Notes under the pieces: model-generated
The model's input: the letters and a program-made list of their open reading frames with translations, nothing else
The model's database searches: none
What the model was told of the DNA's origin: nothing
Made by a program: the position numbers and the translations under genes
Source of the DNA: Liolophura sinensis
Taxonomy: Eukaryota > Mollusca > Polyplacophora > Chitonida > Chitonidae
DNA: 64,000 nucleotides
Reading direction: 5' to 3'
Assembly: GCF_032854445.1 (NCBI RefSeq)
Contig: NC_088307.1
Span: 25,183,953 to 25,247,952 of the forward strand
Shown here: positions 13,601 to 60,600 of the stretch, in pieces
Layout of the letters: each line of letters begins with the position of its first letter
How positions within the stretch are numbered: position 1 is the first letter of the stretch

Positions 13601-16600
13601 AATTTGACTGAATCAGATTCTATTCATCTCAGAAAGATGTTTTAAGGTTTGGCTGGGAGGGGAGGGCCTCTGTGGCCAGGGGGTGTAGAATTACGCCAAT
13701 GCAGCGTAATGACCCAGAAGCCTCTGTCGTATAAGTTACACATTCTCTTAAAACACCAATCAGATAATAAAAATATAAAGGGTTTGGTTGGAACATACGT
13801 GTAGGATGATAATTTTGTGGAAAAATATGATTAAGCCTTAAAAAATGTATTTTGTCTTGCAAATTTTTGGGGGCAAATGCAATATTTTGCGTTCATTTAA
13901 AAAAATCCAGCTTAAACACATGTATTGTTTTTGTCTCCAGCTCTTCACAGTGCCTGTTACCATGGTCACATCCGACTGGTGCAGTTTTTGCTGGAGAACG
14001 GTGCCGACATGAACCTGGTAGCTTCTGTCAGCGATCAGAATGGCGGCAGTGAGAAGAAGGAAGAGCAAACTCCTCTCATGTGGGCGTATGAGCGAGGTCA
14101 GAGGTCAATCTTGAACAAGTGCTCTATATGAAGTATATCTGTGCAATAAAACTTTTTTTGAAGATTTAAAAAAAAAAACACTGTAAGCTTATGGAGTATT
14201 GGCGCAATGTGTCGTCACCATTGCAAGAGAATATACAGTGTAGCTGACGGCCATATTGGAAGTATATTAGCATTTGCTGGTATAGCAGTATTTCTCCAAC
14301 AAGAGCTATCGAAAGTAGGTCCAATATTATAAGCTGTAACCAAAAAATCTGAACTTCTCCTGCATCACAGAAGATACTCCCTTTTAATTGGTCACTTTGG
14401 GAATGCATATATTTCTGAGCTCATCAACTGATGTCATCATATTTCTGTTACCCAGGTTATCGTAATTCATTCGGCTTTCAAAATAATGGCGTCACTGAAG
14501 TGATCAGCCAATACAACGGCCTTCTGTGCTTTGTTTGTTTCAAGGTTATTCACTGACTGGATAACATGTAGCCAGCATGAAGGTTACTAGCCTGAAATAT
14601 ATACATATTTTGTCAGTGACCATTTATTTACTTGACCGGTGTTTTATGTTGTACTCAAGAATATTTCACTTATACCAAGGAGGCCAGCATTATGGTGGGT
14701 GGGAGCAGGGTAGAGCCTGGGGGAAACCCATGACCACCCACAGGTTGCTGCCAGACCTTCCCACAGCCGGAGAGGAATCTAGCATAAGCTGGACCAATGT
14801 AACTAATCATGTCATATTATATTTATGTGTATTATGAAAATACGACATTGACAGGCTTTGAAAATGTACTTGGGATAATATATCAAAAAGTGATAAATTG
14901 TACAACTGTTGTAGCTTACAGTTTTTGTTTTCACACTTACATGTGAAGACAGGGAACTCTCCTGCTCTCACTCCTTGAGGGGCCTTGCCGACCATAAGCT
15001 GAAGATGACGCTTGTGTTTCCATTCTGTAGACATCATTTGTCTGTCCCTAATAATTGTACAGTGTTTATATCTGTATGTTACATGTGGGAAAGCTCATCA
15101 GTGACATGCTAAAGGTCTGTGGTTTTCCATGGGCACGCCAGTTTCCTCTTCCCATGAAAGCGACTGCCATCATATAATTTTAATGTTCCTAGTTACGCCG
15201 TTATACAACAATCAAATAAATAAATAAATAAATCATGTTTCCCTGACGATGTCTGGACCTATTATTTGCAGGTCACGACTCCATAGTGACGTTGTTGAAA
15301 CATCACAAGCGCCCGCAGGATGAGTCCGCATGCGGGGACTACACCCAGCCAGGGGGTGACGGCTCGTACGTCTCTGTCCCCTCCCCACTTGGCAAGCTAC
15401 GCAGCATCACAAGAGGTATGGAAAAGTTTCAAGCAAGCATGTAGTCATGGCGTTGTTGCAAGGACAATATGCTAATGCAGGTCTTCTTTCAGTGAGTTGT
15501 AAACGGTGTGACTTCTCTAAAAAAATCAGCCCACGTAACTGGTCATTAGGTTACAGACAGAATCTTTGCCAATAGACCAGTAGTCTACAGGTAATTGCGA
15601 GGTGTGAAAGTCAAATGGTCAGTTGGGGCTTTGGTCCTCTTTATGCTTCTGTTACTTGTCCATCATTGTGCTCGGAGTAATTTGGTATTGACATTATGAA
15701 TGTCACTTCTGACCGCAGAGAAGATTGACGTCTTACAGCTGCGTGCCAGCCTCCCGCACCAGTTCCACCTTCTCATCACAGACATGGAATTCCAGGAGGT
15801 CATTGGCACTGGATCCTTTGGCAAAGTCTTCAAGGGAAAATGTAGAGGAAAGACAGTGGCTATTAAACAGTGAGTTTGATTATATTCCTCGATAATTGTG
15901 TTAAGTTGGAGCGAAGGTGCTCTCAGCTTTTCTACTGGATCTTTTGAAGTTTTGATTTATTTATTTGATTTGTGTTTTATGCCGTACTCAAGAATATTTC
16001 ACTTATGCGACGGCGGTCAGCATTATGGTGGGAGGAAACTGGGCAGAGTCCGGGGGGAAACCCACGACCATGTGCGAACAGCCGGAGAGGAAACCAGCAT
16101 AAGCTGGACTTGAACTCAGAGCGACCGCATTGGTGAAAGGCTTATGGGTCATTATGCTGCGCTAGCGCGCTAACCAACTGAGCCGCTTGAAGTTTTGAGG
16201 TTTGTGACATTAAATTACTGTAAAAAATCATGTTTTTTATTATGTTTCAGCACCAAAAGTAATATATTAAAAAAAAAACAAGCAAACAAACAAATAAAAT
16301 AGCTATCTTCTGTTTAACTAGGTACAGGGCCAGCTCCTTTGGTGCGAAGTCAGATGTGGACATGTTTTGTAGAGAAGTGTCCATCCTGGCCAAACTCAAC
16401 AGTTCTTATGTTATAAACTTTGTGGGGGCGTGTTTGGATGATCCTAGTGTGAGTTCATTTACTGATTTTATTTGATGAAGGTGTTGTTTGTTTTATAACA
16501 TACAGTCTTATTCCCTGATCCACTAAAGGTTATGACACCAGAATAACCCTCATGCCTTAACCTTTCCACATGTGAACTTTCAGTGTAATTTATGCGCATT

Positions 16601-19600
16601 GAAGTTTTGATTTTGAGAACAAAACCACAATTGTTGGATTGGCCGGTTTCAGGGCTTTACAAGAAGTATTATTTTATCAGTCAGCACAGAAAAATGCCTT
16701 CAGAATGTGCTTGAATAAACACCTTGAAAGCATGTGAAAAGGTTGAAGAATGACATTACGTTAAAGTTATAGTATTAAATGTTTTGTCAGTTCAATTTTT
16801 GATAAATATATATCATTTTGGCTGTCATCATAATATTGAGGAAAATTTTTGTTGTTAATTTACTACCATTGAGTATGATGATGGTGAAATTCAGTATTGA
16901 ATTAGTGAGGAACTCTCAAAACCCGCATAAAGTACCAATCAGATAATGAAATGATGAAATCTGTTTCAGCAATTTGCCATAGTCACACAGTTCGTGTCAG
17001 GTGGATCGCTCTTCAGTCTTCTTCATGAACAAAAGAGGTAATTAACCTGTAATATCTTATCTAACATGTTTGCTTTCGAAAAGCTTACAAATATACATCA
17101 AATTTCATTGAAATGTGTTATTTAGAGCACCTTAAGGCACTGTTCCGGCTATACGTGGAAAGGTCTAGCAGCAACCTGCAGATGGTCGTGGGTTTTCTCC
17201 TGGCTCTGCCCGGTTTCCTCCCACCATAATGCTGGCTGCCATCGTATAAGTGAAATATTATTGAGTACGGCGTAAAACACCAATCAAATAAATAAATGAA
17301 TTAAGGCAATGATAAATAAACCCAAACTGCATGACAAAGTTATACATTTTGCATGATTATGACAGTTATATTGATCTTAGAAAGGTGTGTTGAGATTTGT
17401 TTGGAAATTGAGGTGATATCCTATCGCTTTTCAGCACCAAAAGTGATATTTTATGACAATAATTGCATCTAAAGACTCACTTTTTGGGGCGAATCTTGAA
17501 GTCTTTTATTATACAGTATAATGAAATGGGCCTCAGAGTAACACGCGAGCATAGCGCAATGACCCAGGAGCCTCTCACCAATGCGGTCGCTGTGAGTTTT
17601 AGTCCAGCTCATGCTGGCTTCCTCTCCGGCCAAATGTGGGAAGCAACCTGTGGATGGTCGTGGGTTTTCCCCGGCCTCTGTCCGGTTTCCTACCACCAAA
17701 ATGCTGGCCGTTGTCGTATAAGTGAAATATTCTTGAGTACAGCGTAAAACACCAATAAAATAAATAAATGCGTATTATATAGTATATATATCGTAGTACC
17801 AAAGGCTACTCAGAGGCACAGGTAGTGATTATCAGACCCTTGACCAATTTCTTAATTAAATGAGTGAGTGAGTGAGTGCTTGGGGTTTAACGTCGTACTC
17901 AACAATTTTTCAGTCATATGACGACGAAGGAATCATTTGGGTGCATGCACGTGTAATGTGCCTCCTTGTTGCAGGACGGATTTCCACCGCTCTTTTATTT
18001 AGTGCTGCATCACTGAGACGACTTACCGAAGGCAAGTAAGCCGCCCCGCCCGAGCCATTATACTGATACGGGTCAACCAGTCGTTGCACTATCCCCTTCA
18101 TGCTGAACGCCAAGCGAGGAAGTTACAACTTCCTCTTTTAAAGTCTTAGGTGTGACTCGACCAAGGATTGATCCTGGATCTACCGGTCCCGAAGCGGACG
18201 CTCTACCAACTGTGCTATCCGGGCCGGTCTTAATTAAATGAAGAAGTAAATTTAAACTTACATGTATTCTGTTGGTTTTAGTTTGATGTGAAAACTTTTT
18301 TGGATCTGTTGTTAGAAGCATGATTTGATTTAGTTTGCTGCATGTCACGCCACTCTATAAATAAATCAGCAGGAAAAATGTTTGGAAAATCATTAGTTTC
18401 TAATGCCATTGTCTGCCAACTGCTGAACATTAATGCATTGGTTTGACAGGCTGATTGACTTACAGTCCAAGCTAACGATCGCCTACGACGTGGCCAAAGG
18501 CATGGAATATCTTCACAATCTACCTCAGCCAATTATACACAGAGATCTCAACAGCCACAACATCCTGTTGGATGAAAACGGACACGCCCTGGTGGCTGAC
18601 TTTGGAGGTTTGTTCTATTTGTGTAAGATATCCTAGCCTGCAGTGTGTTAGTACTTAAATTTCCAAATTTTGTCCTCACTTTTTTAAATGGGTCCTTTTT
18701 TGAAAATGTCCTTGTCTAATAAGCAGAAAGTTCTGATTACATGTACATTGTTGATAATTTGTAATGAAAATCCCAGAAGATATAGCTGCATGTATACATG
18801 TTAATATAGGTTGCCTGGTTGTGGACCAATTTGTATGCGTATGTCAGCAACCTGTGGATGATCGTGGGTTTCCCTTGGGCTCTGCGTGCTTTCCTCCCAG
18901 CATAATGATGGCCATGGTTGTATAAGTGAAATATTCTTGAGTATGGCGTAAAATACTAACCGGATAAATAAATAAATAAACTATAGATGGAGCCTGTATT
19001 AAAGGAGAAGAAAACTTTAAAAAATGACACAATAGGCTGAAAAGAGCACATTTTTTTTCTATCTGGTGGTGCGTGTTGCATAATTTGGCGATTTTTCCTC
19101 ACTGTACATGTAAAGACTGAAAATGGCAAAGCTGGCATAAATCACTTAGTCCATCGCGTCCTCCATCTTCAGCACCCTGTAATTAATTCTGGGGGTGTGT
19201 TTCCACTCATCCAATGGGAGTAGTTAAAACTGCCGGCTTGTTCGTGTAAACTGGGAACCCACATCCAACATTCCTGATCGTCAAGTTGTAAACGAACTGT
19301 ACCGTTCGCTACCTTTTGGGAAGAAGAGTTCCACCAGAAATGCACTTTGGCTGTTTCCGACGGCAATTCTCCTAACACACAAGACTTCAGGACTAGTTCT
19401 TAGGCAAAATGGAGTGGCCCACAGTGGATTTTGGCGCTGACTTTATTTATAATTTATCAATTTGAAGTACATATTAGATTTTTTTTTATGGCACGCACCT
19501 GCGAGGAAATGCATAATCTATTTGATGGTATTTGATTGACATTTAAATTTTCTTCTCCTTTAAAGAAACCAGTATTAAGTACTCACTGTAAATTGTATAT

Positions 19601-22600
19601 TTTGTCAGAATCCCGCTTTCTGAGGTCTACGGAGGAAGATAACATGACCAAACAACCTGGGGTGAGTGACGTGAAAAATTCTCAGTTATTACCCTAAATG
19701 GGGATAAATTTCATCCATGACTTAGCTGCCCCTTTTTCTTGATTTTTAGAGTTCTGTTGATTTTAGAAAGGTGTTTTGAGGTTGGGAACATGGGATGATA
19801 TGCGAATAAAAAATTTTAAGTTTGAGTACGAAAAGTAATATTTTGTGACACTCATGCCTCTGAAAATGTACTTTTGTGGGCGAAATTTTAGCTCATTTAG
19901 GGTAGACATCTTATTTATTGATTAACTTTTATGTTATTTATTTATGTACTTATATACTTAGTTATTTGTTTATGTGTATATTTATTTGATTGGAGTTTTA
20001 TGCCATACTGAAGAATATTTCACTAATACAACAGCAGCTAGAGTTATTGTTGGGAGAAAACTGAACAGGGCGGCTGGGAAACGACCAGAGAGAAAGCCAG
20101 CATGAATTGTGTAAACTCACAGTGACTGCATTAGAGAGACCCCTGGGTCAGGCTTCCATTCTACTGTGGCATGCCAACAACTAGGCCTTGGAGGCTCCCT
20201 CTACTGGTAGAGAAGTGTTGCTGTTTGCCAAGTTGGCTCAGATGCTATGGCATGTGTTCTGTTGTGCCATTGTGCTAGCATCAGACAACTTGTAGGAACT
20301 TCAAAACATAATCGGAAAATCTCATGGTTCTACCATTATAGCATATATGTTAAGCTGGCTCTCCATGAGGTTTGGGTTCAAACCCAATCTTGGACAGAGG
20401 ATTTGTAAATTCCCCGGCTGTCAATGCATGTGGTGGCCTTGGTAACAATATAAATCAATCAGTGAGCCGTGTTTGGCCGTTCGATCGTTTTGTCTTTCAG
20501 CAGTATGTTATGCATGTCTAAATGTCACAAGTGGGAAGGTTTGCCAGTAAATTGCCAAAGGTCAGTGGTTTACTCAGTGCACTCCAGTTGCCTCCACCTA
20601 TAAAACTGAATGCCGTCTCTTAAGTGAAAGTCTTGAGTATTGCAGTAAGGAAACAATCAAACAAGTAAATAAATATATCAAGCTTGCTCATGTGATTTTG
20701 CACACAAATGTTTTTTGAGCAATGCATTTAAAAAACGATGAAATAAATAATTAAATCAGTGGATAATAAAATGGTTCCAAAAATTGCAGAACCTCCGCTG
20801 GATGGCTCCTGAGATCTTTACCCAGTGCACCAAGTATAGCATCAAGGCAGATGTGTTTAGCTACTCTCTGTGTCTGTGGGAACTTCTGGCGGGAGAACTG
20901 CCCTTTGCTCATCTCAAGCCAGGTGAGTCAGTGTAGCATCAAGGTGGATGTGTTTAGTTACTCCCTGTGACCGTGGGAACTTCTGGTGGGAGAACTGCCC
21001 TTTGCTGGTCTGTAACCAGGTGAGTCAGTGTAGCCACAAGGTGGATGTGTTTAGCTACTCCCTGTGACTGTGGGAACTTCTGTTGGGAGAACTGCCCTTT
21101 GCTCATATCAAGCCAGGTGAGTCAGTGTAGCGTCAAGGTGGATGTGTTTAACTACTCCCTGTGTCTGTAGGAACTTCTGGCGGGAGAACTGCCCTTTGTT
21201 CATCTCAAACCAGGTGAGTCAGTGTAGCGTCAAGGTGGATGTGTTTAACTACTCCCTGTGTCTGTGGGAACTTCTGGTGGGAGAACTGCCCCTTGCCGGT
21301 CTCAAACCAGGAATCAGTGTAGCGTCAAGGTGGATGTGTTTAACTACTCCCTGTGTCTTTGGGAACTTCTGGTGGGAGAACTGCCCTTTGCTGGTCTCAA
21401 ACCAGGAGTCAGTGTAGCGTCAAGGTGGATGTGTTTAGCTACTCCCTGTGTCTGTGGGAACTTCTGGTGGGAGAACTGCCGTTTGCTGGTCTCAAACCAG
21501 GTGATTCAGTGTAGCCACAAGGTGGATGTGTTTAGCTACTCCCTGTGACTGGGAACTTCTGGTGGGAGAACTGCCCTTTGCTGGTCTCAAACCAGGTGAT
21601 TCAGTGTAGCATCAAGGTGGATGTGTTTGGCTACTCCCTGTGTCTGTGGGAACTTCTGGCGGGAGAACTTGCCTTTGCTGGTCTCAAACCAGGTGAGTCA
21701 GTATAGCATCAAGGTGGATGTGCTTAGCTACTCCCTGTGACTGTGGGAACTTCTGGTGGGAGAACTTGCCTTTGCTGGTCTCAAACCAGGTGAGTCAGTG
21801 TAGCATCAAGGTGGATGTGTTTAGCTACTCCCTGTGTCTGTGGGAACTTCTGGCAGGAGAACTTGCCTTTGCTGGTCTCAAACCAGGTGAGTCAGTATAG
21901 CATCAAGGTGGATGTGCTTAGCTACTCCCTGTGACTGTGGGAACTTCTGGTGGGAGAACTTGCCTTTGCTGGTCTCAAACCAGGTGAGTCAGTGTAGCAT
22001 CAAGGTGGATGTGTTTAGCTACTCCCTGTGTCTGTGGGAACTTCTGGCGGGAGAACTTGCCTTAGCTGGTCTCAAACCAGGTGAGTCAGTGTAGCCACAA
22101 GGTGGATGTGTTTAACTACTCCCTGTGTCTGTGGGAACTTCTGGCGGGAGAACTGCCCTTTGCTGGTCTCAAACCAGGTGAGTCAGTGTAGCATCAAGGT
22201 GGATGTGCTTAGTTACTCCCTGTGACTGTGGGAACTTCTGGTGGGAGAATTGCCCTTTGCCGGTCTCAAACCAGGTGAGTCAGTGTAGCATCAAGGTGGA
22301 TGTGTTTAACTACTCCCTGTGTCTGTAGGAACTTGTGGTTGGAGAACTGCCCTTTGCTGGTCTCAAACCAGGTGATTCAGTGTAGCATCAAGGTGGATGT
22401 GTTTAGTTACTCCCTGTGTCTGTAGGAACTTCTGGTGGGAGAACTGCCCTTTGCTGGTCTCAAACCAGGTGTCAGTGTAGCATCAAGGTGGATATGCTTA
22501 GCTACTCCCTGTGTCTGTGGGAACTTCTGTTGGGAGAACTGCCCTTTGTTCATCTCAAACCAGGTGAGTCAGTGTAGCGTCAAGGTGGATGTGTTTAGCT

Positions 22601-25600
22601 ACTCCCTGTGTCTTTGGGAACTTCTGGTGGGTGAACTGCTCTTTGCCGGTCTCAAACCAGGTGTCAGTGTAGCATCAAGGTGGATATGCTTAGCTACTCC
22701 CTGTGTCTGTGGGAACTTCTGTTGGGAGAACTGCCCTTTGTTCATCTCAAACCAGGTGAGTCAGTGTAGCATCAAGGTGGATGTGTTTAGCTACTCCCTG
22801 TGTCTGTGGGAACTTCTGTTGGGAGAACTGGCCTTTGCTGGTCTCAAACCAGGTGAGTCAGTGTAGCATCAAGGTGGATGTGTTTAGCTACTCCCTTTGT
22901 CTGTGGGAACTTCTGGTGGGAGAACTGCCCTTTGCTGGTCGCAAACCAGGTGTCATTGTAGCGTCAAGGTGGATGTGTTTAGCTACTCCCTGTGTCTGTG
23001 GGAACTTCTGGCGGGAGAACTGCCCTTTGCTCATCTCAAACCAGGTGAGTCAGTATAGCATCAAGGCCGATGTGTTTAGCTACTCTCTGTGTCTGTGGGA
23101 ACTTCTGGTGGGAGAACTGCCCTTTGCTCATCTCAAGCCAGGTGAGTCAGTGTAGCATCAGGGTGGATGTGTTTAGCTACTCCCTGTGTCTGTGGGAACT
23201 TCTGTTGGGAGAACTGCCCTTTGCTCATCTCAAACCAGGTGAGTCAGTGTAGCGTCAAGGTGGATGTGTTTAACTACTCCCTGTGTCTTTGGGAACTTCT
23301 GGTGGGAGAACTGCCCTTTGCTGGTCTCAAACCAGGTGAGTCAGTATAGCATCAAGGTGGATGTGTTTAGCTACTCCCTGTGACTGTGGGAACTTCTGTT
23401 GGGAGAACTGCCCTTTGTTCATCTCAAACCAGGTGAGTCAGTGTAGCATCAGGGTGGATGTGTTTAACTACTCCCTGTGACTGTGGGAACTTCTGTTGGG
23501 AGAACTGCCCTTTGTTCATCTCAAACCAGGTGAGTCAGTGTAGCATCAGGGTGGATGTGTTTAGCTACTCCCTGTGTCTGTGGGAACTTCTGGCGGGAGA
23601 ACTGCCCTTTGCTCATCTCAATCCAGGTGAGTCAGGGTAGCATCAGGGTGGATGTGTTTAACTACTCCCTGTGTCTGTAGGAACTTCTGGTTGGAGAACT
23701 GCCCTTTGCTGGTCTCAAACCAGGTGAGTCAGTGTAGCATCAAGGTGGATGTGTTTAGCTACTCCCTGTGACTGTGGGAACTTCTGGTGGGTGAACTGCC
23801 CTTTGCTGGTCTCAAACCAGGTGAGTCAGTGTAGCATCAAGGTGGATGTGTTTAGCTACTCCCTGTGACTGTGGGAACTTTTGGTGGGAGAACTGGCCTT
23901 TGCTGGTCTCAAACCAGGTGAGTCAGTATAGCAGCAGCTAATAAGAGAAAAGGCTTAAGTTTATTAGAAAGATATTTTTACGGAATGTGTGATAACACAG
24001 ATCAAATCAGGTGTTAACCAGGGTGTGAACTAGTCCGGTGAATTTCAGAGAAATTGATTGAGAATCCCACACCCGCAGTCGTGTAAGTGAAAAATTCTTG
24101 AATACAGGATAAAACACCAAGTGATCAAATACAGGTACCTGTACTTAGTTATGCTTTCCTGTATTTACTGTTGTTATTTTGTTGCATTACAGCTGCAGCC
24201 GCTGCTGAGATGGCGTACCACACAACGCGACCTCCGATCGCCATAACCTTTCCCAAACCTCTGCTTGCTCTGCTACAGAAAGGTTGGAATGCCAACCCAC
24301 AGGTAAGATGAGGAATCACCTGTTATTTTAGTTCCTAATATTGATCGAGACAAGGAACGGTGTAATGTGATCCAACAAAGAGGTTATCATGGAATTGTTA
24401 CTTATGTTGCAGTTGTTGAAATTTGCTCTTTGAGGAGTAAGGAAGTGTTGCAGAATACTGCAGTTGTTGAAACCTGTTCTTTTAGGAGTAAGGTAGTATG
24501 GCAGAATACTGCATTTGTTGACACCAGCTCTTTTAGGCGTATGGAAGTGTTGCAGAATACTGCAGTTGTTGAAACATGTACTGTTAGGAGTATGGAATTG
24601 TGGCAGAATACTGCAGTTGTTGAAACCTGCTCTTTGAGGAGTATGGGAATGTGGCAGAATACTGCAGTTGTTGACACCAGCTCTTTTAGGAGTATGGAAA
24701 TGTGGTAGAATACTGCAGTTGTTGAACATGCACTGTTAGGAGTATGGAATTGTGGCAGAATACTGCAGTTGGTGACACCTGCTCTTTGAGGAGTATGGCA
24801 ATGTGGCAGAATACTGCATTTGTTGAATCCTCCTATTTTAGGAGTACGGAAGTGTGGCAGAATACTGCAGTTGTTGACACCTGCTCTTGAGGAGTCTGGA
24901 AGTGTGGTAGAATACTGTTGACACCTGCTCTTTCAGGAGTGTGGAAGTGTTGCAGAATAGTGCAGTTGTTGAAACGTGTACTGTTAGGAGTATGGAAGTG
25001 TGGCAGAATACTGCAGTTGTTGACACCCGCTCTTGAGGAGTATGGAAGTGTTGTAGAATACTGTTGACACCTGCTCTTTCAGGAGTGTGGAAGTGTTGCA
25101 GAATAGTGCAGTTGTTGAAACGTGTTCTGTTAGGAGTATGGAATTGTGGCAGAATACTGCAGTTGTTGACACCTGCTCTTGAGGAGTATGGAAGTGTTGT
25201 AGAATACTGCAGTTGTTGACACCAGCTCTTTTAGGAGTATGGAAATGTTGCAGAATACTGCAGTTGTTGAAACATGTACTGTTAGGAGTATGGAATTGTG
25301 GCAGAATACTGCAGTTGTTGACACCTGCTCTTTGAGGAGTATGGCAATGTGGCAGAATACTGCATTTGTTGAATCCTCCTATTTTAGGAGTATGGAAGTG
25401 TGGCAGAATACTGCAGTTGTTGACACCCGCTCTTGAGGAGTATGGAAGTGTGGTAGAATACTGTTGACACCTGCTCTTTCAGGAGTATGGAAGTGTTGCA
25501 GAATAGTGCAGTTGTTGAAACATGTACTGTTAGGAGTATGGAAATGTGGTAGAATACTGCAGTTGTTGAAACATGCACTGTTAGGAGTATGGTTGCAGAA

Positions 25601-27974
25601 TATTGCATTTGTTGAAACCTGAACAAAAAAAAGAAAAAAAATGAAAAATAATAAAAGTTGATTTAGAGTACAAAAAGTTGCAGTTTGATATCAGCCTTTG
25701 CCCTGTGAGATTTTATGTTGAAATCCATTCAGGTCTGCGGGCATTCAAAGTTTTCAACCAGGAATGATAAGCCTAGATATGGTTCAGTCGACCCACTAAT
25801 TCTGTCCAAAACATGGATAACATGTCTGATCTCTGTCTAATTTCAGGAGCGTCCAGAGTTCAGAGAAATTGTCCCTATTTTGGAGGAGTGTCGGCACTCA
25901 CAGGCTGTGGCGTTGCTAAGCAACAGTATAAGCACTCAGTCCGAGTTTAACAGTGGGCTTAGTGTGCTGACTGAGCCTGTGCTGGAAGAAGAGGACGGGA
26001 GGTCAACTCCCCCCCTCACGGGTATGGTGACTGCCATGAGGACACGCTGGGAAATGGAAGCCTCCAGAAATAAGTACGCTCACATTTATGTAAACGACAA
26101 CAACAGTAACTAAATAACAACATAACAACAACAACAACCGTGAGAATGGTCACATTTCTGGCCTGTTTAACCAACAACAGCAACAACGACAATAAAAACA
26201 ACAATTTATGTATTGTATTTCACATAAGGCTAACTTTCTTCAAGTGACACATTTCATTTAATTATAATCCACTTTATGGGCCACGAGAGTTTTTTTTTTT
26301 GTGAAGTTTGAACAATTTCCTATCAGAAGAACATAACCAGTGAAGAAATACATTTGTTTCACCACCCATTTCACCAAAATCCACCTGGATTTAAATATTT
26401 TGTCTTTTTTGAGATGGTCGTAAACTTTGCAAGGAAACATTTCTACATGTACATGTCCAGATGTAAATGAAATGGTATTGAGGAAGATATTATGAGTGAA
26501 ATAAATTCAAGTTTTATGTTGACAAGTAGTGAGAGGAATATTGTTTATAACTACCGGTATTAAGATATTAAACTGGTATTAATTCCTCTGTACATTTACA
26601 GTACAAATCAAAGATTTTACAGTACATTTACAGTACAAATCAAAGATTTTACAGTACTTTACAGTACATTTATGACTTGTTTCAGTGCTGTGTCGTCTGA
26701 AGAATTTCGTCGCAGGTTTCCTTATGCACAGTTGGATAAAAATGGTTTGTACATTTTGCATGCAGATTTTCAACAAAAAAATCCCACATAACTGTATTAC
26801 CATTGATTGACAGGTAGGCTTCAAATTGAAAAGTGGAATGTTAGACAACATGCTGAAACTGTTTGGGATTTGGTATGCTGTTTAGAAAATTTTTATTTAG
26901 GATGAACTGCATTTGTTTGGGATGATTTTGTATTCAAATGACAGGGTGAAATATTAGACTTTTGGGCTTGTGAAACGAATATTTTATGCCTGTTTCAAAA
27001 TTCTCTTTGAAAGCGAATATTAAAACAGAAATTTCTGTTCATATCTTTTGTGTGGAAAGCATTCTGTTATCAATGCTTTAAAGTCCAATGAGTGTGAAAT
27101 CAAAATGTGTTTTCTTCTGTAATATGTGTGACCTGTCCACAACTATTTTTTTTAAAGTTTGAAAATTTTGTCATATGATTTTTTGAGATGTAGTTACAAT
27201 AATCATCAGACAAATTCCATCAACCCCATAATTTTATTAAGTATAATTAACTTATTACCTAAGTATGTGTACAGGAAGTGTTTGAGCTCGGACTTCTTCC
27301 ACCCATAGCTCATGCTGGCTTCCTCTCTGGCTGTAGGTGGGAAGGTCTGTCAGCAACCTGAGGATGGTTGTGGGTTTCGCCTGGGCTCTGCTTGTTTTCG
27401 ATCCACCATAATGCTGGCCGCCGTCATATAAGTGAAATATTCTTGAGTACGGCGTAAAACACCAATCAAATAAATAAATACATCTTCCACCCCTAAACGT
27501 TACCCTAGTCCTATAACTGACAACTTCTTGAGTACAGCATTAACCACCAATCAGATAAATAAATAAATAAATAAATGAATAAATGTTTATGCTAGTGTTC
27601 TGAGTGATGTCTCCAAAAGTATTTGCTAAATACTCTCCAGGTTTACAGTTACACGATGAGATATAAGAATGTGTCACGGCCGTACATTGGAAGGTCTGAC
27701 AGCAACCTGTTTCTCTTGGGCTCTGCCCAGTTTGCTCCCTCCATAATGTTGGCTGCTATCATATAAGTGAAATATTCTGGAATATGGTGTAAAACGCCAA
27801 TCAAATAAATAGATAAGATAATTACAATTTGCCTTCCCATTGCCAGGTTATGTGACCGACCCACTCAGCACCCTGGGGATTCCTGTCTCTCTGCCCCTCC
27901 CCCCACAAGCCTCTCTCAGCACAGAAGATGAGAGCCACCTGCTGGTCACTAGGCTCCACCACCTGCAACTGTAG
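4618..27974 (+). CDS. TNNI3K: TNNI3K-type ankyrin-repeat serine/threonine or dual-specificity kinase, complete
   Basis: There are 22 coding exons: 4618-4657, 5355-5463, 6146-6249, 6664-6767, 7110-7220, 8966-9064, 10634-10778, 11434-11572, 12380-12484, 12915-13009, 13941-14096, 15272-15415, 15719-15869, 16322-16448, 16970-17037, 18450-18607, 19609-19661, 20790-20922, 24193-24302, 25847-26073, 26686-26744, 27847-27974. They total 2565 nt, giving 854 residues and a TAG stop; human TNNI3K has 835. An N-terminal MGNYKSRP matches the vertebrate start and suggests N-myristoylation. A short basic helical segment follows, then ten ankyrin repeats (about residues 66-420) and a TKL-group kinase domain. 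Visible kinase residues are the glycine loop GTGSFGKV (480-487), VAIK Lys500, helix-C Glu519, HRDLNSHN with Asp598 and Asn603, DFG Asp616 and APE Glu644. A Ser/Glu-rich tail ends in exons matching the vertebrate C terminus (YVTDPLS). In vertebrates the protein binds cardiac troponin I; its invertebrate role is unknown to me. All catalytic residues are intact, so an active kinase is expected. Confidence 0.95.
4704..4895. mobile_element. short inverted-repeat element, type M2 (MITE-like)
   Basis: It begins attcttcaaccttttcaacc and ends ccattgaaaaggttgaagat, so the ends are inverted copies of each other. The interior (ttgcacagttaaatgaagct) recurs at 7768, 43830 and, inverted, 42815. At under 220 bp with no coding capacity it is non-autonomous. 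It lies in intron 1. Confidence 0.7.
6838..6965. repeat. AT-rich imperfect inverted repeat
   Basis: Segments like ttgataaataagtcatgaat and attatcaacatttatcaata face each other around a very AT-rich core in intron 4. It could fold as a hairpin, but low complexity makes this weak evidence. Confidence 0.35.
7504..7735 (-). mobile_element. SINE type A, near full length, minus orientation
   Basis: Read on the minus strand, it runs from a tRNA-like head through the central block to the tail. On the plus strand that tail appears as ttatttatttgattg followed by caagaatatttcactt. A run of about 13 C at 7714-7728 replaces part of the head. It lies in intron 5. Confidence 0.85.
7768..7980. mobile_element. 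type M2 inverted-repeat element
   Basis: It starts cttcaactttttcaacc and ends in ctgaagatttacagta. The interior ataatttgtacagtttaatg matches the M2 copy at 4704. It directly adjoins the SINE at 7504 in intron 5. Confidence 0.65.
8055..8720. repeat. 74-bp minisatellite, 9 copies, intron 5
   Basis: The landmark gattcacc recurs every 74 bases from 8067 to 8659 with no length change over nine units. Units differ by a few substitutions only. The array ends about 245 bp before the acceptor of exon 6. Confidence 0.95.
11236..11350 (+). mobile_element. SINE type B, diverged
   Basis: It contains gtcagttatttgccaaaggg, then cagtggtttt, a cctccaccctaaaactg block and a degraded tail. The same order is seen at 20523 and 35772. 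It lies in intron 7. Confidence 0.6.
11866..12035 (+). mobile_element. SINE type A, 5'-truncated
   Basis: The central block (gcaacctgcggatggtcgtg) and the tail (cataatgctggcc, then gtataagtaaaatattcttg) are present. The tRNA-like head is missing. It lies in intron 8. Confidence 0.85.
13625..13860. mobile_element. M1-like element split by an internally deleted SINE
   Basis: The flanks tcagaaagatgttttaaggt (before) and ggttggaacatacgtg (after) resemble the middle of M1 elements. Between them, at about 13658-13777, lies a SINE with head cgtaatgacccagaagcctc fused directly to the tail tcgtataagt...aaacaccaatcag, missing its centre. This suggests a SINE inserted in an older element in intron 10. 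Confidence 0.5.
14622..14797 (-). mobile_element. SINE type A, minus orientation, head truncated
   Basis: The plus strand shows the tail first (ggtgttttatgttgtactca), then ccagcattatggtggg and ggttgctgccagaccttccc. It stops at agcataagctggacc. It lies in intron 11. Confidence 0.85.
15075..15232 (+). mobile_element. SINE type B
   Basis: It contains gttacatgtgggaaagctca, then tcagtgacatgctaaaggtc. After a degraded middle it ends in acaatcaaataaataaataa. It lies in intron 11, just upstream of exon 12. Confidence 0.65.
15957..16186 (-). mobile_element. SINE type A, nearly full length, minus orientation
   Basis: It is one of the best copies. Read on the minus strand, it starts with the tRNA-like head that appears on the plus strand as gcgctaaccaactgagccgc. 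The unique centre and a tail ending in AAATAAAT repeats follow. A short gap is present in the central block. It lies in intron 13, between the exon carrying VAIK and the next kinase exon. Confidence 0.9.
16552..16758. mobile_element. short inverted-repeat element, type M4
   Basis: It begins cttaacctttccacatgtga and ends catgtgaaaaggttgaaga, which are inverted copies. The interior (gagaacaaaaccacaattgt, cagtcagcacagaaaaatgc) recurs at 40905 and 54280. It lies in intron 14. Confidence 0.65.
17138..17300 (+). mobile_element. SINE type A, 5'-truncated
   Basis: It starts within the central block (ggctatacgtggaaagg) and keeps a complete tail, gtacggcgtaaaacaccaat, plus AAAT repeats. It lies in intron 15. 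Confidence 0.88.
17365..17505. mobile_element. M1 element fragment
   Basis: The segments gatcttagaaaggtgtgttg and caccaaaagtgatattttat follow the M1 order seen at 19690. The terminal repeats are not preserved. It lies in intron 15. Confidence 0.5.
17543..17770 (+). mobile_element. SINE type A, nearly full length
   Basis: The head starts near gcgagcatagcgcaatgacc, followed by the B-box-like region, the central block and the tail aatattcttgagtacagcg with AAAT repeats. It lies in intron 15. Confidence 0.9.
17864..18227 (-). mobile_element. SINE type D with intact target-site duplication
   Basis: On the minus strand it opens with a tRNA-like head (A-box-like tagcacagttggtagagcg, B-box-like region near 18160). 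A central block follows, and the end is ttgttgagtacgacgttaaa plus (CACT)n. The insert is flanked by the 14-bp direct repeat tcttaattaaatga at 17850-17863 and 18228-18241, as expected of LINE-driven insertion. The perfect duplication marks this as a young copy. It lies in intron 15. Confidence 0.93.
18840..18982 (+). mobile_element. SINE type A, 5'-truncated
   Basis: It begins at cagcaacctgtggatgatcg and ends with the A-type tail and AAAT repeats. It lies in intron 16. Confidence 0.85.
19690..19904. mobile_element. M1 inverted-repeat element (MITE-like)
   Basis: It starts ta-ccctaaatg and ends catttaggg-ta, so the terminal inverted repeat CCCTAAATG is flanked by TA on both sides. The interior includes gttgattttagaaaggtgtt. 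Related copies lie at 31544, 31928 and 52849. TA target duplication with short inverted termini is typical of Tc1/mariner-like non-autonomous elements. It lies in intron 17. Confidence 0.75.
19977..20198 (-). mobile_element. SINE type A, diverged, minus orientation
   Basis: The plus strand reads tatttgattggagttttatg, then gaatatttcact and a degraded centre. It ends with a head remnant, caactaggccttggaggctc. It lies in intron 17. Confidence 0.75.
20340..20450 (+). mobile_element. possible type C SINE head
   Basis: The block tttgggttcaaacccaatct resembles a B box and is followed by aaattccccggctg, like the blocks near 1260 and 42420. The boundaries are unclear. Confidence 0.4.
20523..20672 (+). 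mobile_element. SINE type B
   Basis: It contains aagtgggaaggtttgccagt, then caaaggtcagtggtttactc, a cctccacctataaaactga block and a tail, agtgaaagtcttgagtattg, with AAAT repeats. It lies in intron 17. Confidence 0.75.
20790..20922 (+). other. TNNI3K: kinase exon 18 (APE motif to helix G), parent of the tandem array
   Basis: The exon encodes residues 637-680 plus one base. It starts [10 protein letters not shown] and continues through [16 protein letters not shown] to LKP, with the conserved Asp657 of kinase subdomain IX. Acceptor: attgcag at 20789. Donor: gtgagt at 20923. The last 89 bases, from gtatagcatcaag at 20834, form the exonic part of the first unit of the 97-bp array that fills the intron. 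Confidence 0.97.
20834..23925 (+). repeat. 32-copy, 97-bp tandem array made of an exon end plus its splice donor
   Basis: Each unit is 89 bp of exon 18 sequence (starting gtatagcatcaag) followed by the first 8 intron bases, gtgagtca. Counting unit by unit gives 32 copies. Six units are 2 bp short (units 5, 6, 8, 17, 19, 22), and 32 x 97 - 12 predicts exactly the observed end. Unit 1 is the functional exon; the other 31 are intronic. Of 32 donor sites, 24 read gtgagt, 3 gtgatt, 3 gtgtca and 2 have lost GT. All units read through the donor meet TAG after PGESV or the like. No unit has its own pyrimidine tract, so they are not extra exons. Confidence 0.96.
24065..24128 (+). mobile_element. SINE tail fragment
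   Basis: The segment cagtcgtgtaagtgaaaaat, then tcttgaatacaggataaaac, matches only the 3' end of the A and B SINEs. It lies in intron 18, between the 97-bp array and exon 19. Confidence 0.6.
24400..25620. repeat. about 50-bp minisatellite with higher-order periodicity, intron 19
   Basis: About 24 diverged copies of a roughly 48-52-bp unit are present (core ggagtatggaagtgtggcag followed by aatactgcagttgttgacac). Large blocks repeat every 146 bp around 24840-25170, showing a three-unit higher-order repeat. Long open frames on both strands are by-products of the repeat and not genes. Confidence 0.92.
26105..26215. repeat. CAA-rich microsatellite region
   Basis: Interrupted CAA/ACA triplet runs lie in intron 20, directly after the exon 20 donor at 26074. 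If this donor were skipped, the frame would end within 40 bp. Confidence 0.75.
27305..27481 (+). mobile_element. SINE type A, head truncated
   Basis: It runs from agctcatgctggcttcctct to an intact tail, gagtacggcgtaaaacacca, plus AAAT repeats. It lies in intron 21. Confidence 0.88.
27485..27577 (+). mobile_element. SINE type B 3' fragment
   Basis: The segment ccacccctaaacgttaccct, then cttgagtacagcattaacca and AAAT repeats, follows the preceding SINE directly. It probably inserted into the A-rich end of its neighbour. Confidence 0.6.
27676..27815 (+). mobile_element. SINE type A with central deletion
   Basis: It contains ggccgtacattggaaggtct and cagcaacctg joined to tttctcttgggctctgcc, then the tail. 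It ends 31 bp before the last exon of the kinase gene. Confidence 0.8.
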
Positions 27975-43012: not shown

Positions 43013-43063
43013 ATAACCCTTGAAAACGACTTGTATTCTACCATATATTTACTTATATTATAT

Positions 43064-43205
43064 ATTCGATTGGTGTTTTACACCGTACTCAAGAATATTT
43101 CACTGATACGACGGCGGCCAGCATTATGGTGGGAGGAAACCAGGCAGAGCCAGGAAAACCCACAGCCATTCGCAGGTTGCTGACAGACCTTCCCACGTAT
43201 GTCTA
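43064..43205 (-). mobile_element. SINE type A, 5'-truncated, minus orientation
   Basis: The plus strand reads attggtgttttacaccgtac, then cggcggccagcattatggtg and ctgacagaccttcccacgta. A plus-strand type B SINE follows at 43222, so the two tails point away from each other. Confidence 0.88.
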
Positions 43206-47100: not shown

Positions 47101-50100
47101 AAACGTTGAACAGTCTAACATTCATTGAAGGTCTCTTACTTTTCACCAGTGTAGTACATCATGTGTGGAAAAGCATGTCAATACTTTAATTCTTCTAATT
47201 TTTGCGACAGATGTTAGTAGTGGTGAAAGTAGAATATTACATTTCTTTACCAGCCTTTTGGAAAAGATATGTAAAACTTCATTTATTTTTTTATGTTTTA
47301 TCCAGCTTTAAGTGAAAACATAGCTATTTGTGTTTAAAAAGACTCACAGGTCTTGATAGCTAGTGAATGCCTCCAGTATTGTTTCAGTGTTCTGCTATTC
47401 CAAGAGAGGTAACTCTGGATGTGATGCTAAGCAAGGCAATCCATTTGGACCATTCTGGGACACTTACGAGGTGGACTTTGACCACTCAGAACTGTATGGC
47501 CCCCTCTACTTTGCTCCGCACAGTCAGTTTGAAACAAAAAGATGGCTTGATAAGTATGTGCAATTTATTTGCCTGAACTTAGTATTTACTTCTTTTTTTT
47601 TGCTTTCAGTCATGTTAAAAGTGTGTTAGTGAATGCTGAATGAGAGCATAAATTTTATTTTTTGATATTTTCCTTTTATTTTTTTTTTTGTGTTATTTTT
47701 ATTATTTATTTGGCTGTGTGTTCTAATTGACTTTCACTGAAGACCACAAGGCTTTGGCCAATGAGACACATTTGCATTTCAGACCGATGCCATTTTTTCA
47801 CGCAGAATACCATGAGTTCTTCCTGCATCAGTATGGCAGCTGGGTGCTGATTTTCACTTTACAGCCGATTGCTTAACATTGTGACTGCATGTTTACAACA
47901 GTAAATGTCCATTTCATTGAAATTCTGCATCGCATTCCCGTTTGTAGCATCTTGTAGTTAAAACAAAGGTGGAACTAAAAATACCAACTAAAAACTGTTA
48001 CTTTGAAGTGTTTGCTGCTTTATTGGCCATTAAAAGCAGCTGAAGTCTCAAAGGTCTCGATTGGGTGTTAATTTGAGCCCTTTATAAAATTGCATTGTCT
48101 ACAAGTATGATGAGATCAGTAGAAAACAATACTTAGCTATGACTCATGACAGAGGTAGGCACAGCGCCATCTGGATGTGGTGTAGGGAATGATAACTCGG
48201 TGGTATAATTCAGTGAACTAAGTATCACTGAGTAATGGACTATGTCACTCAGTTATCCCCCCTTAGAGAACATCCAGATGGCGCTATGCCTATATTGGTC
48301 AAGGGTGATAACTGTGTATGGTCTCCCATTATTTTACTATTGTGTTTCTAGATACCCACCTGACAAATACCCAGTCATGGCTTTCACAGGAGCTCCTGCA
48401 CAGTTCCCTGTGAACCCCGCAGATGCTCCTCTCCAAAAATACTTAAAATGGTCCAAAAACATTGAAGCAAAAGCAACAAAATTCATCAAGGAAAACGTTG
48501 AGAAGCCATTCATTGGTTTACACCTGCGGAATGGGATTGACTGGGTAAGTGTGTAAGCAGTGTAGTTGTAGTGATCATTGGGGAAGATTTAGGGAGGGCT
48601 TATATTCCCCATTTAGTAGTCACCAAGGTAGGATCAGGTCACTGATTCATGCTGTGATGGGGTTTACCAGCATGGGATTTGAACCAGTGATGTCTGGGTT
48701 CTGAATCTAGACCTGAATCACGAAACTAAGGGGGAAATTCCCCTGTTACCAGGCATTAAGGACTGCTTTCAAACAAACATGCACAGACCTTACACCAATA
48801 AGTACGACAAAATTTTGGAAAAAGTCATGTTCGCCGTCGGGCTCCACTGTCATGTGACTTAGGGATGGATTCTGTCTTGAAACAAGATGAGCTGTCAGAA
48901 TATGCAAAACATCATCGTTTCCTGTGACAGAAAATTAATTATTGCGCAAGATTTGAGTCCAAACCTTGCAGAATAACGTACACAAAATTAAAAAAAGCAC
49001 AGATAACTCTGTTGACTGGAACTGAAGACTGAAAGCTTAGTCTGCAGACTCATTATTTGTTCATCTATGCCAGGTAAGGTTAATAGTCCGGGTTTTGTGA
49101 TGGGAAAGAGGGTTTATCCTGAATCACAGCAGGGATGGATGAAGTTGACCAGCTCAATACGGTAGTACATTGCTAAATCTGCTGTCAGCTTCATTCATAT
49201 CGGCTTCAGCTTCAAGTATGAGAATGAACACTTGCCTGTTTGAAGATTTGGTTTGCATTTCGATATGGTTATGCTTTCATATCGTCATGGGAATACGTTC
49301 ATGTTTTCATAGGATGCTTGCACATCTGAACAGATGTTTGTTTGCATATCTGAAGGTTTTGGTTGCACATCTGAAATAAAATGTTATAACATGTCTGAAG
49401 AAATTGCTTGCATATTTGAAGAAAATGATTGAATGGATCACAGAGGATGCTTTTCAGACACAAAGAAAGAGGATTGATGATTCCAAATTTTCTTGCATAT
49501 CTTTGGAGAATGCTTGCATGTATTGCACAGTTGCAATGTTTTATGTATGAACTGGTAACAAGGAAAATAAAAATTTAATTTCCAAGTGACATGGTGTAAG
49601 AATATGAATTTCTGTGCAGAGAAATGCGTGTGACCATGTGGAGCAGTCTCCTCAGATGTTTGCCTCGCCCCAGTGCCTTGGACAACGTGGAGAAAATGGT
49701 CCTATGACATACGAGCTATGTTTTCCGTCCGATAAAACCATCATAAGACAAGTGAAAGAGGCGGTGAAGAAGTACAAGGCCAAAACAGTTTTTGTGGCAA
49801 CAGACCAGAGAGACATGATGACAGAGCTGGGCGATGCGTTTAAGAAAAAGGTGAGAGGGATTTCTTTGAACTTCTGCAAATTTATGGGAAGATGTTTGGG
49901 AAGAAGTGCATGACACACAAGGTGTAAGTTCAGTCTCGGCTTGGAACAGGAAGTTGGGATATTCCTTGTACATGTACTTGTTGTTCAGGAGTCCTGGCGG
50001 ACAATAAGCTGAAGATTGTGCTCTAGTGGCTGTAAACACACAATAATATGTGTTTCAGACATGGGCAACACACTTATGTAAACTTTCACATGCTAGGATT

Positions 50101-55228: not shown

Positions 55229-55229
55229 C

Positions 55230-55435
55230 CATTACCCTTTAAGCAGTGATCCATTACCCATTAAGCAGTGATCCATTACCCTTCCAGCAGTGATCCATTA
55301 CCCTTCAAGCAGTGATCCATTACCCTTCAAGCAGTTATCCATTAGACTTCAAGCAGTGATCCATTACCCTTCATTCAGTGATCCATTACCCTTCATGCAG
55401 TGATCCATTACCCTTCAAGCAGTGATCCATTACAT
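55230..55435. repeat. 22-bp tandem repeat, about 9 copies
   Basis: The unit gcagtgatccattacccttcaa repeats with small changes. Its cagtgatc core resembles the cagtgatct of the adjoining tRNA-like remnant, so the array may have grown from it. Confidence 0.9.
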
Positions 55436-57602: not shown

Positions 57603-60600
57603 ATGGAAAACGGTGGTGATGACAAAACCCAGCATGGGGGCAGTAATTCAGTGGTGGCTGGAGGTGACCAGAGCAGTGGCCCAGGATCTTCTCCTGACCA
57701 GGCAGATGACCATGAAGATGTGGTCAATGTCCACCAGTTCTATCCTGAAATCGACATCTTGACATCCACTGTCATATCGGACAGCAATGTGGCAGAGACG
57801 GAGGATTACAGGTTTGGTATTGAAGAGTTACCTGCCCGCAGCTCTGCGTCACCCAGTCATGAATTAGTCCCAGTAAGTGAGACTAATGAAGACAATGAAA
57901 ATGGAACAAAAAAGGCAGACGAAAGTGAGGCAGAATCGCAAGATGTTGACCAAAGAACTGCTGAGAAAGAAGATGAAGGCAGATGTGGTACCAAAAAGAA
58001 TATGGATTTCTTTGGTGGTTTGGTGGAATATACGGCCAACGCTGTGGATGACCACAATAATTCTGCTGGCAGGTCAAAGGTTAGTGTGCTCTTAGCTTCT
58101 GACTACATACATACCCGAGAACTCTGAGTGCTGAGCAGCTTGTAATCCACATAGCAGTGTTAAGTATGCATGGTACATCCACATGTTAGTGAGGATATCC
58201 GACAACACAGTTCCCTTTGTTAAAGCAGTGTAAACCAACAGTGCCCTCTGTAAGTTTTCTACGTCTTATGTGAACCTTTTATCTCATCTAACTTAACAAT
58301 GACTCAAGCGTAGTTTCATATCAAAGACTTTAATAATTAACTACACTTCATATCTTATGTCTTGATATCCATAATGCTGGCCATGTATTAAGTTTTATAT
58401 TATTATTATTATTTATTATTTATAAGTGATAAAATTATCATTTGTTTTTAATTGTTCATTTGCAGGCTGGTCGTGTAGATAGGTTCCCAGCCACACAACG
58501 TTTCCAGGAGTTTGAGGAAGTTGTGGGTACAACAGAGAGATATACCTCCCCTGACCTGGACATGGCTCTTATTATCAACACCAAAGCTGAAGAACAGTAA
58601 GAGTGCAGTCATCTTGTCATGTATTGGTGTGACTCTTGTTATACTCAGGATATACACAGTGTTCAGTAAGAGTGCAGGCATCTTGTCATGTATTGGTGTG
58701 ACTCTTGTTATACTCAGGATATACACAGTGTTCCGGCATTTTTCATACCATTGTGAGGAGTGTATATTTTATGTCTCTGTTTTTGGTCATTGATTTTTCC
58801 AGTACTGACTACAATGTGTCAAGTAGGTTAAAATTTGCTTTTCAATGGGGCCCAGTGTATTTTTTAATCTCGGGCTAGGTGGCGCCAGTGTGAAGCAGGA
58901 CTTCAAGCCATGGTTACGTCAAGAATGGACTGTAGCGTAATGTCTACACTGTTACAATGTATCAGTTTGTAGTGTAATGTCATACTGTCTTTAATGTGAC
59001 GCCATTATGATGAGCTGGGAAAAGATCATATGACATCAATATGTCACGCAATTGAAGAATTGCAGTACATGTATATGCATTGGAACCTTCACTTGGAGCA
59101 AATTCTTTGTGGAACCGTGTTTGATTAAATTCTGTTGGATTCCCGCAAAGCAAATGTACATGTAAGGGAATCAGACTAGATTCTGGTAAAAATGGATGAT
59201 GAAAATAAAGGCGTGTCACACACGGCAATTTTTTCAGTTACATGCTATAAGCTAGTGTTTTATTCTAGACACTCACCCATTACAGCAAGTTTTGTTGAAC
59301 AGTTAAACTATTCTTGAGAATTCTGTTGAAAACAAATCAGTCATTCAGTCAGTCAATCAACCTGTCTGTCAATCAGTCAGACAGTAGGCTTGTTATTTAA
59401 TCAGACAGTCAGTCAGCCTGTTAGCTGATTAATCAATCAGTCTGTTAGTTAATCAGTCAGTCAATCAGCCTGTCATTTAATCAGACAGCCAATCAGCCTG
59501 TTAGTTAATCAGTCAGTCAGTAGGCTTGTTATTCAATCAGACAATCAATCAGTCAATCCATTGTTTCAGCTTCATGAAGGCCATGCAGTGTAAGGAGGAA
59601 GGAGACCTCCAGCGGGCCATCCAGTTGATCGGCAAAGACATGATTCTTCAGCGTGACCAGCCTCGCCACTTTGTGGAGAAAGCAGAGATGTTCCTCGAAC
59701 TCTGCGACTTCCAGTCCGCCATTCTGAACTACAAGAAGGCTTGTTTTCTCGAGCCTAACAACACAGAGTTCTACAGTCGCCTGGCATTCATCTACTACTT
59801 TCAGGGACAAGTGTTTTTCGATCAGCGGTTGTACGCGGAGGCACTGGAATCCTTCTCGAGAGCTTCAGAAATGCTACCAGAGAAAGTCGGTTTTCACACT
59901 AGAAGGTACGTCTGTGGTATGAACCAAGCAGTTATGCAATTAGCTCACCACCAGTACTCTTGTATCAGGCTTCTAGTGTTCCATGGCCCTTGTCTTCATC
60001 ATTTGGACACCAATAACAGGCTTGTAGCATTCCACTACCCTTCACCTTGTATTCATCAGTAGCACACTAATAGCAGGCTTGTTGCATTCCACTACGCTTC
60101 ACCTTGTCTTCATCAGTAGCACACTAATAGCAGACTTGTAGCATTCCACTACCCTTCCTCTTGTCTTCATCAGTAGCACACTAATAGGAGACTTGTAGCA
60201 TTCCACTACCCTTCACCTTGTCTTCATCAGTAGCACACTAATAGCAGACTTGTAGCATTTCATTACCCATCACCTTGTATTCATCAGTGGCACACTAATA
60301 GCTGACTTGTAGCATTTCACTACCCTTAACCTTGTCTCCATCAGTAGTACACTAATAGCAGACTTGTAGCATTTCATTACCCATCACCTTGTATTCATCA
60401 GTGGCACACTAATAGCTGACTTGTAGCATTTCACTACCCTTAACCTTGTCTTCATCAGTAGCACACTAATAGGAGACTTGTAGCATTCCACTACCCATCA
60501 CCTTGTCTTCATCAGTTGCACACTAATAGCAGACTTGTAGCATTCCTCTACCCTTCACCTTGTCTATATCAGTAGCACACCAATAGCAGGCTTGTAGCAT

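Follow-up and report, generated by a model that had tools for sequence, protein, structure and literature searches.

The TNNI3K gene of the chiton Liolophura sinensis harbors a minisatellite of 32 units, built from the end of exon 18 together with the first bases of intron 18, splice donor included. The array lies in a stretch of 64,000 nucleotides from contig NC_088307.1 (assembly GCF_032854445.1, positions 25,183,953 to 25,247,952 of the forward strand), which we refer to as the window and whose own numbering is used throughout. The boundary-spanning minisatellite is confirmed as a real feature of the gene, and with a probability of about 0.8 we consider it a neutral repeat of the kind termed a 'mirage', founded through microhomology.

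A minisatellite across the end of exon 18

Using Tandem Repeats Finder, the array was delimited at 20833-23933 with a period of 97, 32.1 copies, 92% matches and a score of 5068. Splitting it by an anchor gave 32 units over 20834-23925, 26 of them of 97 bp and 6 of 95 bp. The 97-bp unit consists of the last 89 bases of exon 18 followed by the 8 intron bases gtgagtca, and the tandem unit thus spans the exon/intron boundary in the way that characterizes mirages. Unit 1 (20834-20930, + strand) contains the true end of the exon and the true donor, CAG/GTGAGT at 20923. The 31 downstream copies, units 2-32 (20931-23925, + strand; 25 of 97 bp and 6 of 95 bp), retain an intact CAG/GTGAGT in 23 cases. 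Counting all 32 units, this sequence occurs in 24, with GTGATT in 3, GTGTCA in 3 and the GT lost in 2, so that the repeat units themselves supply donors, as they do in human IFI6.

To define the host gene we built a spliced model of 22 coding exons on the + strand (4618-27974), in which every intron runs from GT to AG. Its translation is identical to the NCBI protein 'serine/threonine-protein kinase TNNI3K-like' of Liolophura sinensis over 854 of 854 residues, with 0 mismatches; this reference (P0001) came out as the top match when roughly joined exon translations were searched against proteins. The gene that hosts the array is therefore intact. Exon 18 (20790-20922, + strand) encodes part of the kinase domain, and its last 89 bases form the exonic part of the unit. 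Independently of the spliced model, an 80-residue query from exons 18-19 found TNNI3K 4yff as its best PDB sequence match (1.8e-38).

Intron 18 (20923-24192, + strand) measures 3,270 bp in the spliced model and is the longest of the 21 TNNI3K introns, whose median is 807 bp. Units 2-32 account for 2,995 bp, or 91.6% of it, and once they are subtracted 275 bp remain, fewer than in every other intron of the gene (the next shortest has 303). When the 22 exons were compared with the window by blastn, exon 18 was the sole exon found to be repeated, with 31 extra matches; five other exons gave one match of 20-22 bp each and the remaining 16 gave none. An earlier annotation made from the letters of the window, here called the sequence-only reading, had proposed 32 units nearly filling intron 18 of an intact TNNI3K gene, in agreement with these results. 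Its description of the unit as exactly 89 exon and 8 intron bases is accurate for unit 1, but the CAG/GTGAGT that this implies is present in 24 of the 32 units and not in all of them.

Divergence and turnover of the copies

In the 89 exonic columns, each of the 31 copies has 2 to 13 differences from the exon (11.3% on average), and any two copies are separated by an average of 7.4 (8.3%). Unit 24 (23053-23149, + strand) is the nearest to the exon by pairwise comparison, with 2 differences among 89 sites against 6 to 13 in the other 30 copies. It clusters with the exon in a FastTree tree with a support of 0.988 and sits in the middle of the array among diverged units; units 23, 25, 27 and 29 are also exon-like, with 7, 8, 8 and 6 differences, respectively. 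Either unit 24 survives from the early copies or the exon converted it at a later time.

The order of the units is structured. Neighboring units resemble each other more than in 5,000 shuffles of their order (lag-1 p = 0.009, lag-2 p = 0.002), two pairs of units at lag 2 show no difference, and neither do units 6 and 26 across the 89 exonic columns, although they lie 20 units apart. This pattern suggests local duplication plus occasional exchange. Six units are short by 2 bp, the deletion falling within the 8-base intron part in five of the six. Two events probably account for these deletions: one form is common to units 17, 19 and 22, and units 5 and 6 resemble each other. The diversity of the copies at codon positions 1, 2 and 3 is 0.086, 0.091 and 0.074, an even distribution that gives no sign of coding constraint on the copies.

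Polarity and origin of the array

The consensus of the units differs from exon 18 at eight of the 89 exonic columns. Two of these differences change the protein sequence in a telling way: the alanine of the exon (in KAD) and its histidine (in FAHL), which become valine and glycine in the unit consensus, are kept in 108 of 108 homologues scored (from the best 120 of 6,316, of which 108 fitted the search pattern and the other 12 were not scored). Given this conservation, the copies derive from the exon and not the reverse.

Both ends of the array are bounded by a copy of the 9-bp sequence AGTATAGCA. The first, proposed here as the 5' arm of the microhomology that founded the array, lies in exon 18 at 20833-20841 (+ strand), and the second, the proposed 3' arm, lies in the intron at 23925-23933 (+ strand), directly behind the gtgagtc of the last unit, its first base being the last base of unit 32. 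The chance of a run of at least 9 bases at a fixed breakpoint is 4.6e-5. The presence of the 9-bp sequence at both ends makes a microhomology-mediated duplication the likely start of the array. The sequence-only reading had also proposed a tandem duplication, which stands, but had seen its trace in the seam between exonic gtatagc and intronic gtgtagc; the G of gtgtagc is a derived state, and 4 of the 31 copies still carry the A of the exon. AGTATAGCA accounts better for the origin.

The ancestral gene may thus have had a short intron 18 of about 275 bp, with one AGTATAGCA on the exon side and a second one directly after the donor; in the simplest account this intron would have read gtgagtcAGTATAGCAgcagc. 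Slippage during replication, or repair mediated by the microhomology of the two arms, would have duplicated the 97 bp from arm to arm, after which the intronic duplicate would have changed at about eight positions. The patterns among the copies suggest that this changed duplicate was then amplified by slippage and unequal exchange.

We also estimated how often such a placement should occur. Tandem arrays, merged into 24 intervals, cover 15% of the window, and seven arrays lie in the gene body of TNNI3K, some with much shorter units. Defining a boundary-spanning placement as one in which a unit has at least 10 bases on both sides of a splice boundary, 13.6% of random placements in TNNI3K span a boundary for a 97-bp unit, 9.8% for a 74-bp unit and 5.8% for a 51-bp unit. 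The expected number among the seven arrays is therefore somewhat under one, before selection. The observed one in seven is close to the expectation from mutation alone, which supports an ordinary origin followed by a tolerated, mostly neutral fate. No second boundary-spanning array was found in the window, of whose genes a part was modelled.

Donor sites and the consequences of donor choice

Considering that the array multiplies a splice donor, we assessed the strength of this site and its retention in the copies. Under a rule set in this analysis, in which G is counted as fitting at +3, donor 18 alone among the 21 TNNI3K donors has a complete 9/9 match to U1. Among 1,120 other GTs sampled from introns outside the array none reaches 9 of 9, and 2 reach 8. 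A weight matrix derived from the remaining 20 donors gives donor 18 a score of 9.6, the sixth-highest of the 21 (the best is 11.2). Donor 18 is thus strong, though not the strongest by every measure. Its 9-mer is intact in 23 of the 31 copies, compared with a mean of 19.7 (standard deviation 4.9) for the 81 exonic 9-mers, and 24 of these 81 are as intact or more so; the downstream donors are neither kept nor purged relative to the rest of the unit. The array looks neutral on two grounds, namely the even divergence over codon positions and the retention of donors at the level of the remaining unit.

The cost of a wrong choice would be uniform. If any of the 31 downstream unit ends, including the two without GT, were used as a donor, translation would run into the same in-frame TAG (20934-20936, + strand), and the protein would end in ...AHLKPGESV at residue 684. 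A working protein therefore needs unit 1, and messenger RNAs (mRNAs) made from downstream donors should be degraded. Most likely, the spliceosome defines exon 18 from its upstream acceptor (20789) to the nearest donor, that of unit 1, and the gene model suggests that the remaining 31 units are removed with the intron. The array would then be close to neutral and without coding function, and would persist since it does not block the choice of the first donor.

The locus would amount to a classic splicing experiment set up by nature, in which 24 identical donors, each preceded by 89 near-identical exonic bases, stand at the start of one intron and within it. As only the first of the 24 yields a working protein, the array offers a gauge of how well exon definition protects the right choice, and, if it is neutral, splicing would be shown to tolerate strong decoy sites.

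Alternative explanations

Several points weigh against a neutral mirage of microhomology origin. Where donors are equal, proximity to the downstream acceptor can decide the choice, and a choice by intron definition would favor the far end, so that neutrality is not automatic. The NCBI protein is the one line of evidence for the use of the first donor, and the 9-bp arm could also be expected from a trimmed last copy. Moreover, human IFI6 is described as using downstream repeats as donors (PMC4526556). The most interesting of the rival readings builds on such use: the 23 perfect downstream donors would act as decoys that compete for the U1 small nuclear ribonucleoprotein, and the number of copies would determine how much functional TNNI3K is made, the alternative product being either a transcript destroyed for its premature stop or a kinase cut in its C lobe. 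It draws on the IFI6 precedent, on the stop at residue 684 shared by all 31 downstream unit ends and on the status of donor 18 as the only full U1 match among the 21 donors and the 1,120 sampled GTs. However, the donors are no better retained than the rest of the unit, the extended exons would measure 230 to 3,128 nt, and amphioxus mirages have been reported without disturbance of splicing (PMC3087553, PMC3902484), which leaves competition by decoys unlikely. That the array works as a length-variable splicing rheostat, with copy-number differences between chitons setting the level of working TNNI3K, perhaps in heart and muscle, is less likely again.

Two other proposals assign the repeat units a role of their own in splicing, and we hold both to be highly improbable. 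If the CCAG/GTGAGT seams acted first as acceptors and then as the next donors, the intron could be removed stepwise by recursive splicing with the mRNA unchanged, and AG/GT is indeed found at 29 of the 31 downstream seams. As acceptors, however, these 31 seams score from -1.2 to 5.2 (14 of them at 0.6), and no seam attains the leave-one-out median of the real acceptors (7.0), in what is a weak test given a model of 21 acceptors of which two score near -2. The birth of a new exon or intron has been considered because a change of TGG to TAG in units 4, 16, 17 and 30 creates an acceptor-like site, which together with the donor of the unit could give a 44-nt pseudo-exon. With scores of 7.1-7.6 the four sites match the median of 7.0 for real acceptors, and precedents exist, intron gain from mirages having been proposed for amphioxus (PMC3087553) and a potato intron having arisen by tandem duplication (PMC4974935). 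Against this, only units 4 and 30 of the four have an intact CAG/GTGAGT, and four sites among the 208 AGs of the array are no clear excess, as 1-5% of 950 other intronic AGs outside the array score as high (95th percentile 5.8, 99th percentile 9.6). The gene model also reproduces the NCBI protein without any exon derived from the array, so that no intron gain is seen in it.

A real array whose copy number has been collapsed or expanded during assembly is very unlikely in our view. The number of units is that of the assembly, but variation among the copies (7.4 of 89 sites on average) is combined with local order, and the PacBio HiFi reads reported for the species (mean 8,347 bp, 14X) are longer than the 3.1-kb array (PMC11068029). 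We infer that the window belongs to that published assembly, which was first named L. japonica and later corrected. An array that is wholly artefactual appears unlikely from the same variation among copies.

Other repeats and genes in the window

A further minisatellite lies in intron 19 of TNNI3K (24408-25621), about 100 bp past the donor of exon 19, with 24.4 copies of a 51-bp unit and no exon sequence. Outside the gene, a 57-bp array at 59988-61393 was considered as a second boundary-spanning case and rejected by eye: it starts about 80 bases past a donor-like GT at 59906, and the neighboring exon, a likely + strand exon of a TPR protein (59505-59905), lies outside it. This array and another of 22 bp at 55229-55433 have a similar unit core (CCACTACCCTTCA and CCATTACCCTTCA, respectively), as if they were related. 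A dispersed element, about 180 bp at its longest and represented at 17118-17300, occurs on both strands in introns of TNNI3K and beyond, its copies being 71-90% alike; blastn gave 20 further matches with E up to 1e-5, some of only 45-60 bp, at sites that include 43058-43200, 27326-27479, 17642-17770 and 15952-16075. It looks like a short interspersed element. Likely + strand exons at 48236-48553 and 49608-49910 encode a GDP-fucose protein O-fucosyltransferase (PF10250).

Comparison with known systems

In searches of open-licence papers, some aimed at molluscs or chitons and others general, we found no earlier report of a molluscan minisatellite that spans a splice boundary. A 27-bp minisatellite is described in intron 3 of an abalone gene, in an account whose accessible part mentions no splice site, and the terms 'tandem repeat' and 'satellite' are absent from the main text of both the L. 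sinensis genome paper (PMC11068029) and a genome paper on five chitons. The sequence-only reading had called the array unusual; it is indeed a striking case, but its kind is known from the mirages of amphioxus and from human IFI6.

The closest counterparts are those of amphioxus, where tandem duplications over exon/intron boundaries were described in globin genes, with splicing seemingly undisturbed, and proposed as a route to new introns (PMC3087553). The same source reports haplotypes of BflGb6 with 6 and 3 units and refers to earlier 'mirages' in Adh3, and the list was later extended to troponin C and PGBD5 (PMC3902484). In BflGb6, BflGb9, Adh3 and troponin C, and similarly in PGBD5, the unit is reported to combine part of an exon, a splice site and part of an intron, as in the chiton; the genes are otherwise regular and the units diverge and homogenize (PMC3087553, PMC3902484). 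Unlike these, the chiton array belongs to Mollusca, has 31 extra copies as compared with the 6 and 3 units of BflGb6, and is known from the sequence of one haplotype, whereas splicing was checked by reverse transcription polymerase chain reaction and two haplotypes were available in amphioxus.

The minisatellite of human IFI6 (6-16) likewise has tandem units that carry multiple splice donors, but two of its downstream units are described as being used in its mRNAs (PMC4526556 and the title of Turri 1995), whereas downstream use in the chiton gene would give a stop. Tandem repeats at exon-intron boundaries are also reported to give novel introns in human genes (PMC2812944). These minisatellites of primate-specific genes can alter splicing and lie, like the chiton array, at exon-intron boundaries; they differ in having on average four 30-bp units in recent paralogues, compared with 32 copies of 97 bp in a conserved gene (PMC2812944). 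In the potato RdRp gene, a tandem duplication across an exon-intron boundary was reported to have produced a new intron, whereas the chiton gene model adds none (PMC4974935). The TNNI3K array therefore represents a kind that is already known, though rare. What is new, as far as these searches reach, is the phylum, together with the uniform penalty predicted for a wrong choice of donor and a number of copies exceeding that in the amphioxus globins, a comparison based on BflGb6. It extends boundary-spanning minisatellites to molluscs, with a microhomology origin that is open to test.

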